From assembly GCA_019750465.1 (NCBI GenBank), contig JAIEOP010000147.1:1-64000 (forward strand): a stretch of 64,000 bases of DNA. The letters run 5' to 3'. The notes beneath the pieces were generated by a model. That model was not told the origin of the DNA. It did no database searches and worked only from the letters and a program-made list of their open reading frames with translations. Position 1 is the first letter of the stretch, and each line of letters begins with the position of its first letter. Shown here in pieces: positions 57,741 to 61,950 of this stretch. Origin of the DNA: Acetobacteraceae bacterium (GTDB lineage Bacteria; Pseudomonadota; Alphaproteobacteria; Acetobacterales; Acetobacteraceae). Made by a program: the position numbers and the translations under genes.

Positions 57741-58130
57741 CTACTCGAAGGCCGGATCCACCGGCACCCGCAGCGCCTCCGCCAGGCGGTTGGTCTCTGC
57801 GGCCATGCCGACCACCGCCAGCAACTCGCCGAACTGCGCCTCCGTCATGCCCTTCGCCTGCGCTGCCGCTGTATGGCTGGCGATGCAATAGGTGCAGCCC
57901 GCCGCCATGGAGGCGGCCAAATAAAGCATCTCCTTCACCAGCGGGTCGAGCGCCCCGCCCGGCGCCATCACCACGCGCAGGCTGTCCCAGGTCCGCCGCA
58001 GGGTGGCGGGGTCGACCGCCAGCGCCTTCCAGAAGTTGTTCACGTCCGCGATACCGCGCGCGGCCTTGATCTCGTCGAAGACGGCGCGGACCTCGGGCGC
58101 TGCCTCGGCATACTCCACCAGACGCCGCAT
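57741..58130 (-). CDS. Carboxymuconolactone decarboxylase / AhpD-like family protein
   Basis: The 129-residue protein has the AhpD-type core AAGCTYCIASHTAAAQAKG with the C-x2-C and His of the peroxidatic/alkylhydroperoxidase fold. The N-terminal helices (EYAEAAPEVRAVFDEIK) are typical. Members act as peroxidases or decarboxylases; the CxxC pair favours peroxidase-like chemistry. The ATG at 58128-58130 shares one base with the stop of the upstream YCII gene, so they are one operon. Confidence 0.87.
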   Translation of the reverse strand: MRRLVEYAEAAPEVRAVFDEIKAARGIADVNNFWKALAVDPATLRRTWDSLRVVMAPGGALDPLVKEMLYLAASMAAGCTYCIASHTAAAQAKGMTEAQFGELLAVVGMAAETNRLAEALRVPVDPAFE

Positions 58131-58789
58131 CACGCGGTACCCCCTGCGCCGGGGAGCGGATGGTGGGGCTGCGCGCCGATACGCCAGCGCTCGATGCGGA
58201 TGTCCTGCCAGGCTGCCTCGGCAACGGAGGGCTCCCCGGTCAGCCGGGCGCGCACCGCCGCCTCGTCCGGCATCGCAAGGGGGATAACGGAGCCAACCAT
58301 CCGCCCCTTCGGCGCGTCCGGGACCGCGCCGCCGGTCCGCACCCGGCCGGCCGCGACCTCCGGCGCCAGCCGCGCGAAATGCCGCGGGCGCGCTGCCAGG
58401 CGCCGCTGCCCGGCCTCCGCGTCGGCACCGTCGCGGGCAGTAATGGCGAAGCCATGCGCCGGGCCGGTCTCGCCGCCGGCGCGGCCGGCCTGCGGTTTCC
58501 AAGGCATCGGCGCAATGCGGAAATCCAGCGCCTGCCAGCCGGTCCAGATGCCCGTCTGCGCGAAGGGCTCGCTCGCCGGGCAGGCCGCCATCGCGGCCTC
58601 GTCGGCCAGACGGAAGACCTGCAGCGAACCTGTGGTAACGTCATCGGTGCGCAGCCGCGGCGCGGACATCACCAGCCGCCCGGCGGCGACGTTGGTGCGG
58701 ACCTTGGCGACCTGGCGCGGGCGCGCCGCCTCCCGCCGCGCCGGTGCGCCCGGGTCCTGGCCGTCATCGGCAAGCAGCACGAAATCCAT
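58130..58789 (-). CDS. Tandem YCII-like domain protein
   Basis: The 219-residue protein contains two copies of a YCII-like alpha/beta fold. The first begins MDFVLLADDGQDPGAPARRE and ends WTGWQALDFRIAPM, the second begins HGFAITARDGADAEAGQRRL and ends EAAWQDIRIERWRIG. Single-domain YCII proteins are about 95 residues, so this is a fused duplicate. Their chemistry is poorly defined; a His-Asp pair is often conserved. It is co-transcribed with the AhpD-like gene. Confidence 0.7.
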   Translation of the reverse strand: MDFVLLADDGQDPGAPARREAARPRQVAKVRTNVAAGRLVMSAPRLRTDDVTTGSLQVFRLADEAAMAACPASEPFAQTGIWTGWQALDFRIAPMPWKPQAGRAGGETGPAHGFAITARDGADAEAGQRRLAARPRHFARLAPEVAAGRVRTGGAVPDAPKGRMVGSVIPLAMPDEAAVRARLTGEPSVAEAAWQDIRIERWRIGAQPHHPLPGAGGTA

Positions 58790-59499
58790 GCCCGTTCCTC
58801 TCCCTGGTCCAGCACCATGCTGCGCCGTCCCGATCTGTCTGGCGACGTCGGTCAGGGCGGCCGGCGCCGGGCCGGCACTGAATCATCACGGAATTGTGAT
58901 TGAAAAGCGGCCGTTCCGGCGGGCGCCGATCACCGCATCGGCGCGGCGACAGGTTGCAGCGCGGAGCGTCGGCCCCGGATTGCTGCCATAACACCGTGAA
59001 CCCACCAAGGTCCGATGCGGCAGGGGGCGATCACCGGTCTGCGCCCCTGGCCGACCACCGGGGTCGCATCGCGGCGCGAACGCTGGGCGACCGGCCCGGC
59101 GGCCCGTTCGGAGATGCCACAACCGTCGAGGGAATCACCAGAAAGCCCTGAATTCAGGGCTGCCATCCTCGCGGAGCCGATGGCCTTGAACCGTCCGGAC
59201 GGCACCGGAGGCCGCATGCCATGCCGGCGCAGACCGCAAGGGCGCCGGTCCCCGCCGAGGCCGGATCCCTGTCGATCATTGTGCATCGGCGCCGGGGACC
59301 ACGCCAGGAGGCCCTGGTTCGGACCTCGCACGGCACCGCAGGGTTGGGGCAGTACGCGGCACGAAACCGGCGAGATCGGTGCCGCCGCACGATGCGTCGC
59401 GCCGAAAATCGCCACAGATACGCAATAATCCTGCCGTCTTGACCCCCAACACGAAACATGGGAGACACTTGGCCGCCCGGGTTCCTCCTGCCACAGGGC
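58790..59499. other. Long intergenic region upstream of the sRNA
   Basis: Some 700 bases hold no protein with recognisable similarity in any frame. It contains a short hairpin (ATCAC-GGAATT-GTGAT at 58885-58900) beside the promoter region of the YCII operon. It also holds a perfect 16-bp palindrome GCCCTGAATTCAGGGC at 59145-59160, neither followed by a T-tract. Confidence 0.4.
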
Positions 59500-59530
59500 A
59501 AAAAAAGGGCGGCACCCGAAGGGCGCCGCC
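59500..59530 (-). terminator. Intrinsic terminator of the small RNA
   Basis: On the minus strand GGCGGCGCCC-TTC-GGGTGCCGCC pairs over 10 bp with one G-U, followed by CTTTTTTT. It is the clearest rho-independent terminator in the window. Confidence 0.85.
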
Positions 59531-59588
59531 GAGTTTAGGGAGGAAACGTCCAAGAAAACAGCGGTCACGGCATGAACCGTGATGCTGC
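59500..59588 (-). ncRNA. Small RNA resembling the MmgR/alpha-r8 family
   Basis: On the minus strand a transcript of about 89 nt is predicted from near 59588. It has a 5' hairpin TCACGG-TTCATG-CCGTGA, an open stretch GTTTCCTCCCTAAAC, and a 10-bp intrinsic terminator ending in seven T. The decamer UUUCCUCCCU is complementary to Shine-Dalgarno sequences and, as I recall, is the conserved element of MmgR in Sinorhizobium, which limits polyhydroxybutyrate accumulation. A consensus-like promoter lies just upstream. It is too short to encode a protein and stands in a 980-base gene-free region. Confidence 0.72.
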
Positions 59589-59594
59589 ATCGCT

Positions 59595-59622
59595 CATCTA
59601 GCGGCGGACCTGAATCCGTCAA
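59595..59622 (-). promoter_or_regulatory. Promoter of the small RNA
   Basis: On the minus strand TTGACG (59617-59622) and TAGATG (59595-59600) are separated by 16 bases, a good housekeeping sigma match for an alphaproteobacterium. The predicted start is about seven bases further, near 59588. Confidence 0.6.
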
Positions 59623-59651
59623 GGCGTCGAGTGTCCGCTCGGCGCCTTTTT
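59622..59651 (+). terminator. Intrinsic terminator on the plus strand
   Basis: Arms AGGCGTCGAG and CTCGGCGCCT (one G-T pair) flank a six-base loop, followed by a run of T. It points rightward, but no rightward gene ends here. It may insulate the sRNA promoter or end an unseen transcript. Confidence 0.6.
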
Positions 59652-59769
59652 CGTATCCGCAGCACGCCGGCACCCGATACAGGCACCGGAACGGGGTGAC
59701 CGGGGAAGCCAACCCGCCGCGGCTTCCAACCGCGATGATGCCCCGAAGTTCCGTCGCCGCGGCGCCCCC

Positions 59770-60092
59770 TCAGCAGCCGGGCAGCGCGCCCATGGGCCCG
59801 GATAGCACGGGTACCACGTCGCGGCCGGCCAAGGGCCGCGGCAGCAGCGCCGCCACCGCCTCCTCGCTCAGGTAGGCGATTTCAGCAGGCTTGCGTGGCT
59901 TGGCACACACTTCCTGCGGCCCAAGCCACGAAAGCCTGCATAGGTCACCAACGCGATGTCCAGCGCATCGAGGACGTGGTGGATCTTGTTGGTGGAAGCA
60001 GTGTCGCCGCCAGCCGCAAGCAGGAGGCCGACCGGCCGGCGCACCGGATCCCAGGTCCGGCGGAGGGCCGCCCCGGCCATGGCGGTCGGCAA
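59770..60092 (-). pseudogene. Unidentified decayed gene interrupted by a repeat
   Basis: From an ATG near 60090 the minus strand reads MPTAMAGAALRRTWDPVRRP and LLLAAGGDTASTNKIHHVLDAL. Copy C of the double-hairpin repeat (59883-59944) then replaces the coding sequence. Past it, another frame gives EIAYLSEEAVAALLPRPLAG to a stop at 59770. Each flank looks coding but they are out of frame with each other. The family is not recognised; the first part is vaguely flavodoxin-like. Confidence 0.4.
59883..59944. repeat. Dispersed double-hairpin repeat, copy C (partial)
   Basis: This copy keeps only the first hairpin: CAGCAGGCTTGCGTGGCTTGG, loop, then CCAAGCCACG and AAAGCCTGCATAGG. GTGGCTTGG and CCAAGCCAC pair perfectly. 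It matches 61951-62020 at most positions. It lies inside a decayed reading frame, which indicates insertion. Confidence 0.7.
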
Positions 60093-60168
60093 CCGGATTG
60101 CTCCCCCGACGCAGGACTACGCATCGGCCGTTCGGGCGACGCTCGTCGCGGGGCACGCGCCGGCGGCC

Positions 60169-61302
60169 TCAGCGGCCGCCCAGCACCTCCGCATTGTGCT
60201 CGCCCACGCCGGGCGAGCCGCGTGCCGAGCGCGGGCGCGTCCGGTCGAAGGAGATCGGCAGTCCGACCACCCGCACGCCGCTGCCCGGCAGGGCCTGCAC
60301 CATGTCCACGGCCGCGAATTGGGCGCTGGCCGCGAGCTCGCCGATGTCGTTCACCGGGCTGCAGGGCACGCCGGCCGCCTCCAGCGCCTCGATCCAGTGG
60401 GCACGGGTGCGGCCGCGCAGCACCTCGGCGATCAGGGGGATCAGCGTGGCCTTGTGCTCCACCCGGTCGCGGCTGCGCGCGAAGCGCGGATCGCTGCCCC
60501 AGCCAGGGTGCCCGAGCACCGCCGCGCAGCGCGCCCAGAGCCGGTCGTTGCCGGCGGCGAGGCAGAGCGGCCGGTCGGCCGTCTCGAAGACCTGGTAGGG
60601 CACGATCACCGCGCCGCCCGTGCCGTGGCGCTTCGGCACCTCGCCGGTGGCGAGATGGTTGTTCACCTGCCCCTCCACCCAGTGCACCGCGGTCTCGAAC
60701 AGCGAGGTATCGACGATCGCGCCCTGGCCGGTGATGTCGCGCCGGCGCAGTGCCGCCAGCGCGCCGATGACGGTGAACATCCCCGTCGCCTTGTCGTTGA
60801 TCGAGGCGCCGCAGAAGGTCGGCGGGTCCTCCGGCCGGCCGGTCACGCTCATCATACCGCCATAGGCCTGCAGCAGCGGATCGAAGCCCGGGCGCAGGCG
60901 CATCGGGCCGGCCGCGCCGAAGGCCCAGATCGAGCAGTAGACCAGCCGCGGGTGGCGCGCCCGCATGGCATCGGGGCCGATGCCGAGGTCGTCCACCACG
61001 CCGGGGCGCAGGTTCTGCACCAGGATGTCGGCGGTCTCGCAGAGCCGGTGCAGCGCCTCAATGTCCGCGGGCGCCTTGAGATCCAGGGTGACGCTGCGCT
61101 TGTTGCGGTTCTGGCCGTAGAAGTAGAGCGAGGTCCCGCCGTCCGGCCCGAAGGGCGGACCCCAGAGGCGGGCATCGTCGCCGCCGTCCGGCTTCTCCAC
61201 CTTGATCACGTCGGCGCCCATGTCGGCCATCATCGCGCCGGCGAGCGGCCCGGCCAGCGCCTGGCCCACCTCGATCACCCGCACCCCTTCGAGCGGCAGC
61301 AT
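60169..61302 (-). CDS. CaiB/BaiF family CoA-transferase
   Basis: The 377-residue protein has LEGVRVIEVGQALAGPLAGA, MGADVIKVEKPDGG, QNRNKRSVTLDLK and the catalytic Asp expected in GASINDKATGMFT. It is a family III CoA-transferase of unknown substrate. The ATG at 61300-61302 (MLPLEG) is chosen because AGGAGGAACGG lies directly upstream; an ATG five codons earlier would overlap that ribosome-binding site. It is a paralogue of the protein at 3408-4601. Confidence 0.92.
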   Translation of the reverse strand: MLPLEGVRVIEVGQALAGPLAGAMMADMGADVIKVEKPDGGDDARLWGPPFGPDGGTSLYFYGQNRNKRSVTLDLKAPADIEALHRLCETADILVQNLRPGVVDDLGIGPDAMRARHPRLVYCSIWAFGAAGPMRLRPGFDPLLQAYGGMMSVTGRPEDPPTFCGASINDKATGMFTVIGALAALRRRDITGQGAIVDTSLFETAVHWVEGQVNNHLATGEVPKRHGTGGAVIVPYQVFETADRPLCLAAGNDRLWARCAAVLGHPGWGSDPRFARSRDRVEHKATLIPLIAEVLRGRTRAHWIEALEAAGVPCSPVNDIGELAASAQFAAVDMVQALPGSGVRVVGLPISFDRTRPRSARGSPGVGEHNAEVLGGR

Positions 61303-61373
61303 CCGTTCCTCCTGCATGGTTGCCCGCAGGATAGGGGTATGGCGCGCCCCCCGGAACCCGGCCGGCGCGCAAC

Positions 61374-61829
61374 CTATCCCCGGCCGCCGCTCCCGCTCGC
61401 CTGATCGCGCCGGTCCTGTTCGCGCACCAGCCAGTACACGCTGCCGAGCGCCCGCGCGGCGGCGGCGAGGCCGAGCAGCTTGAACGCCTCCGTCTCGGCG
61501 AGATCGAGGATCACGAATTTTCGTGCGATGGCCAGCAGCGCGATCCGCACGGTCAGGATCATGCCGAATATCGTCTGGAACACGGCAGTCTCGGCCGGAT
61601 CGATCACGCCGAGCACGAGCAGGCCGACGACCCGGATCAGCAGCACCGCGACGGCCGCCACCACCACGCCCGCTATGATCAGGGTGAGCACGAAGCAGAT
61701 CACCTGCTCGAACCGCTCGTAGAAGCCAAGGCCGGGCCAGGCCCGCCGGGCCTCCGCGAGGCTGTTGTGCAGCGTACGCAGGGGGTTGCTGCGAGCCGGC
61801 GACTCCGGCGGCGTTCGGCTCTCGGACAT
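61374..61829 (-). CDS. PsiE-like phosphate-starvation-inducible membrane protein
   Basis: The 151-residue protein has four hydrophobic segments beginning VICFVLTLIIAGVVVAAVAV and the segment FGMILTVRIALLAIARKFVILDL characteristic of the PsiE/PF06146 family when split across two helices. PsiE proteins are inner-membrane proteins of unknown function. The C-terminal tail is charged and Gly-rich. It is upstream of the CaiB gene on the same strand with a gap of 71 bases. Confidence 0.78.
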   Translation of the reverse strand: MSESRTPPESPARSNPLRTLHNSLAEARRAWPGLGFYERFEQVICFVLTLIIAGVVVAAVAVLLIRVVGLLVLGVIDPAETAVFQTIFGMILTVRIALLAIARKFVILDLAETEAFKLLGLAAAARALGSVYWLVREQDRRDQASGSGGRG

Positions 61830-61950
61830 GGCGCGGCGTTTCTCTTCGGTCCAGCACTTCGGGCCGGCCCCGAAGCGTGCTCGACCTGGCGGAGGTTCCG
61901 CCGACGGTGCGCCGGCACGGGGACGTCGCCCGCCGGGCCGGCGCTACATC

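Follow-up and report, generated by a model that had tools for sequence, protein, structure and literature searches.

Small RNAs of the alpha-r8 family share the core UUUCCUCCCU, and in most species a single copy lies beside the gene for N-formylglutamate amidohydrolase (FGase) (PMC12559287). In Sinorhizobium, the family member MmgR limits polyhydroxybutyrate (PHB) (PMC8401924). The mmgR gene of S. meliloti is repressed by PhaR, which senses PHB; the consensus core of PhaR sites is YGCRNYGCR, and the site bound at mmgR is CAATTGTGCACCGCAGCATTA (PMC12542648). According to the published coordinates, this box ends 13 nt before the RNA start (PMC12542648, PMC7143759). Caulobacter possesses four alpha-r8 siblings with unrelated promoters; SisA mainly represses transporter mRNAs, and its decamer-dependent repression has been demonstrated at a 5' UTR (PMC12559287). 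AbcR1 and AbcR2 belong to a separate family (alpha-r15) and control the mRNAs of substrate-binding proteins by an anti-Shine-Dalgarno mechanism (PMC7143759).

The DNA analysed here (the window) is a stretch of 64,000 nucleotides from an Acetobacteraceae bacterium related to Crenalkalicoccus. A first-pass annotation of the letters had proposed an MmgR/alpha-r8 small RNA gene with an RNA of 85-90 nt and had named no strand; all elements of the gene lie on the minus strand. It had also suggested a covariance search as a check. In this search, RF00519 (suhB/mmgR, alpha-r8) was matched at 59493..59566 (-) over the full model length with a score of 55.4 bits against a cut-off of 41 (window-wide E 1.1e-8). 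The predicted RNA comprises about 89 nt (59500..59588, -), as judged from promoter spacing, hairpin start and the end of the T run, and agrees with the proposed size; its start near 59588 is likewise a prediction from sequence.

The promoter-like boxes TTGACG-16-TAGATG are present between 59622 and 59595, as claimed. The -35 hexamer TTGACG (59617..59622, -) is separated by a 16-nt spacer from the -10 hexamer TAGATG (59595..59600, -), which is weak, with 3/6 matches to the Escherichia coli consensus. A generic sigma-70 scan of the region returned no promoter, as its rule is not satisfied by the -10 hexamer. The 5' hairpin was predicted by folding at 59558..59588 (-), and the intrinsic terminator (59500..59530, -) is composed of a 10-pair stem (59530-59508) and seven T (59506-59500); both were recovered where they had been placed. 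The whole predicted RNA folds with -40.4 kcal/mol (z -5.6). The decamer TTTCCTCCCT (59537..59546, -), corresponding to UUUCCUCCCU, represents the putative anti-Shine-Dalgarno seed and is present at one place only in the window, where 0.03 occurrences would be expected by chance. It is the alpha-r8 core described in PMC12559287, so that the first-pass annotation was right on this point, as it was on MmgR and PHB. The decamer had been assigned to an unpaired stretch, but in the predicted fold it is mostly, not wholly, single-stranded: the per-base unpaired probability was 0.36-0.98, and a 3-bp helix partly covers it.

The gene is flanked by a YCII-domain ORF (58130-58789, -) and a CoA-transferase family III ORF (60169-61857, -). 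A gene-free region of 980 bases had been described; no Pfam-recognisable gene was found among the ORFs tested between these flanking genes, but the gap is longer, at about 1,379 bases (58790-60168). On the plus strand, a terminator-like inverted repeat followed by T (59621-59648) abuts the -35 hexamer of the small RNA. The ortholog of genome G001 has a comparable inverted repeat in this position, which in sibling promoters is occupied by the upstream PhaR box. Furthermore, a hairpin with GGCCAAGCCACGAAAGCCTGC-like sequence was found twice in the window (59872-59952 and around 61964 (-)) and, in similar form, near another alpha-r8 copy of the host genome (C511, L003); it is probably a dispersed REP-like repeat.

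The Rfam scan was run at the gathering threshold and reports the best family per clan only. Matches to mir-4803 and sot2652 in the region were far below cut-off and were rejected; the weak mir-4803 match corresponds to a hairpin of repeated sequence. The window element is a genuine alpha-r8 small RNA gene, and thus a known kind of regulator: its covariance score exceeds the curated cut-off, the decamer follows a 5' hairpin, and a Rho-independent terminator is present. Covariance model, decamer, 5' hairpin and terminator are common to the window RNA and S. meliloti MmgR. Membership in the AbcR/alpha-r15 transporter regulators was considered as well, since AbcR is partly similar to the SuhB model (PMC7143759) and likewise represses transporter mRNAs, a mode of control that is only predicted for the window RNA. 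It was rejected as highly improbable: the clan-best family over the full model length was suhB, and AbcR/alpha-r15 RNAs are longer (114-120 nt) and carry two CU-rich seeds, in contrast to one such seed and about 89 nt here.

Three alpha-r8 genes were found in the host genome (G000, 6.04 Mb, 522 contigs). The sole FGase gene adjoins the C455 copy and not the window copy. The C511 copy, termed type B for its distinct 5' stem, is located between the RNase J/DUF1467 and proS genes, a setting shared by those type B loci that were examined in relatives. The window copy is the third, a type A paralog. The window copy and copies in G001 (C102, same genus) and G022 (C50) share an upstream CoA-transferase gene with an amidohydrolase gene on its far side, and the downstream YCII and CMD genes are common to the window locus and G001; this arrangement was absent from every other locus examined. 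The window copy is an extra lineage-specific paralog and, because the FGase gene adjoins the C455 copy, not the positional ortholog of MmgR. The proposed MmgR/alpha-r8 identity was thus upheld for the family but not for the position. Relatives carry up to six alpha-r8 copies. In G001, a weak alpha-r8 match (L043, G001:C375:4378-4451; 34 bits, below cut-off) with the altered seed GTTACTCCCTCGACT is possibly a divergent fourth sibling. The window RNA resembles SisA-D of Caulobacter crescentus as one of several siblings that share the decamer and differ in their promoters.

Type A promoters of Acetobacteraceae were compared for PhaR-type boxes. The loose motif YGCRNYGCR was present in 37 of 39 promoters of Rfam-found loci (shuffle mean 7.6, maximum 16), and the stricter TGCRNYGCA in 33 of 39 (shuffle mean 1.8, maximum 8), against 0 or 1 in control segments of the same loci. 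A second scan of named genomes, which overlaps the first set in species and is not fully independent of it, gave the loose motif in 105/105 type A promoters; upstream controls contained it in 8/102 and 8/105 and downstream controls in 11/107 cases. Two positions are favoured: one set of boxes covers the -10/start site (TTGTGCATCGCAGCA), and the other lies upstream of the -35 hexamer. Since the predicted transcript includes neither the upstream box nor the upstream half of the proximal one, conservation of the RNA alone cannot explain these boxes. The motif of the sibling promoters is common to S. meliloti, where CAATTGTGCACCGCAGCATTA is the corresponding PhaR/AniA-type box, but its placement differs: upstream of the start at mmgR, over the -10/start site in Acetobacteraceae. 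Of the new observations made here, the most useful is that PhaR boxes are conserved across the Acetobacteraceae. This was not found in the papers searched, a set outside which fell the main comparative work on alpha-r8, that of Lagares et al. 2016, to which PMC8401924 refers.

Two type A promoters of Acetobacteraceae lack the loose box, namely those of the window copy and of a G022 copy (L059). Over the -10 and start site of the window copy, a degenerate PhaR/AniA-type operator, recognised by motif only, was located (ATGAGCGATGCAGCA, 59583..59597, -). It has two mismatches to TTGTGCRNYGCAGCA (13/15 positions; chance 0.0004 in shuffles of the segment), does not fit the loose consensus, and in its TGC half-site A replaces the conserved T. 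The proximal operators of its orthologs have one and no mismatches to TTGTGCRNYGCAGCA (14 and 15 of 15), and that of the FGase-linked C455 copy is intact. The main phasin promoter of the host genome carries two PhaR-type boxes (L202). In 9/14 type B loci, not including that of the host genome, a PhaR-type box (e.g. TTGTGCGGCGCACAA) was also seen on the stretch from the RNA to proS and may mark another promoter; it was noted in relatives at L068, L081, L082, L083, L092 and L095.

Sequence comparison was employed to judge whether the gene has been maintained. In the two syntenic orthologs, the -35 hexamer reads TTGACG and TTGACC, and the aligned -10 hexamer TAAGTG and TAATTG. When the alignment was read by eye, the window RNA and the G001 ortholog were seen to differ in both partners of two 5' hairpin pairs (A-U to G-C; C-G to U-A) and of one terminator-stem pair (C-G to U-A). 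In the terminators of 23 type A RNAs, 97% of cells are paired, and changes on both sides were counted in 15 cells, a number reached in 0/500 shuffles; pairing was lost when partners were slid. The 5' segment folds more than one standard deviation better than shuffles in 99% of 104 type A RNAs. Loci L040-L099 come from the covariance model; loci from L293 on were fetched with the core as pattern, so that conservation of the core there is given by construction. These data bear on the alternative that the window copy is a duplicate that is decaying or silent, expressed weakly or not at all. The weak -10 hexamer, the lost operator and the narrow distribution would fit such a duplicate, and the two other, intact copies in the genome could make it redundant; decay is made very unlikely by an unchanged seed region, by the run of seven T at the terminator, and by hairpin and terminator pairs in which both partners were replaced after the divergence from the G001 ortholog. 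A maintained gene is preferred.

Targets were sought by pattern searches in the genome. The perfect complement of the decamer, AGGGAGGAAA, occurs six times. Three occurrences are the alpha-r8 genes themselves, and two form the ribosome-binding sites of genes for TctC-type substrate-binding proteins (L109, L111), at a distance of four bases from the ATG; these are the only start-linked perfect complements in the genome. The sixth (L107) lies inside a longer ORF, is not sponge-like and was rejected as a CrfA-like sponge; there was no such sponge among the perfect decamer complements in the genome. That both start-linked complements are TctC genes is suggestive, in a genome with a very large expansion of the family: at least 150 TctC matches (PF03401) were counted, an estimated few percent of host genes.

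Among start-linked sites in relatives, substrate-binding proteins accounted for 20/48, compared to 10/46 for the control Shine-Dalgarno pattern GAGGAGGAAA (two-sided p 0.048). With the small AAGGAGGAAA control added, 13/63 control sites were substrate-binding proteins (p 0.021). Target classes were assigned from protein starts and checked against Pfam tallies. The enrichment over strong Shine-Dalgarno controls is marginal and was taken as a weak signal, because the control patterns and the denominator of the small control were chosen after the first result. Start sites with AGGGAGGAAA outnumbered those with AAGGAGGAAA, but G+C content alone would give about this difference, and the observation was discarded. 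Transporter-type targets, as known for SisA, are likely also for the window RNA; they differ in kind, with TonB-dependent receptors in Caulobacter and TctC-type substrate-binding proteins predicted here.

A link of the alpha-r8 family to PHB is credible, because the repressor of S. meliloti mmgR, PhaR, is a sensor of PHB. Genes for Hfq, PhaC, PhaR and phasin are present in the host genome; Hfq was nearly universal among the genomes examined. In a set of 60 genomes, PhaR was found in 36/39 genomes with alpha-r8 and 3/21 without (p 1.5e-9), and PhaC in 33/39 and 5/21, respectively (p 8.5e-6), phylogeny and genome size being ignored in both tests; this co-occurrence is only supportive. The relevance of PHB is supported for the regulation of the alpha-r8 family, not for an effect of the window copy. 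That it is a functional MmgR in the strict sense, limiting PHB through lowered phasin under PhaR control, would be in line with the RF00519 match, the presence of PhaR-type operators in the promoters of siblings and of the main phasin, and the tracking of PhaR and PhaC by alpha-r8. So would the pairing of the seed with a second phasin, whose start codon is uncertain: at -19.2 kcal/mol, it ranks at about the strongest 5% of the background. The main phasin, however, reached only -13.8 kcal/mol, near the background median of -12.3. Unlike S. meliloti MmgR, moreover, the window copy is one of three, is not at the FGase locus, where the positional counterpart retains an intact proximal operator, and has a degenerate operator itself. 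A strict MmgR role was therefore judged unlikely.

The explanation preferred here, held with good confidence, is that the locus encodes a real lineage-specific alpha-r8 (MmgR/SisA) paralog, a minus-strand RNA of about 89 nt that represses by its decamer with the aid of Hfq and is less dependent on PHB. It draws on the family match, the paired substitutions, synteny, operator statistics and gene content. The RNA would be transcribed from its own promoter and most likely assisted by Hfq. Its exposed UUUCCUCCCU would pair with purine-rich ribosome-binding (Shine-Dalgarno) sites and lower the translation of a set of mRNAs, likely those of periplasmic substrate-binding proteins and possibly those of PHB-granule proteins. 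Siblings with a PhaR/AniA-type operator would probably be repressed by PhaR until PHB accumulates. The window copy retains only a damaged operator and is therefore probably less dependent on PHB status.

More tentatively, and at somewhat below an even chance, it is proposed that in Acetobacteraceae PHB sensed by PhaR controls the alpha-r8 family through paired phasin-type operators, and that the window copy has escaped this control. If this is true, the window copy would make part of the anti-Shine-Dalgarno repression independent of PHB. The host genome offers natural controls, with one sibling carrying an intact operator, a sibling of the other type without operator, and one copy with a damaged operator. 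A well-defined small RNA family is now placed in a poorly studied group. For the PhaR/PHB input known at S. meliloti mmgR, a matching motif was found at nearly every type A promoter examined in Acetobacteraceae, and it thereby becomes a testable question whether MmgR-type RNAs are primarily regulators of PHB or general regulators of carbon uptake.
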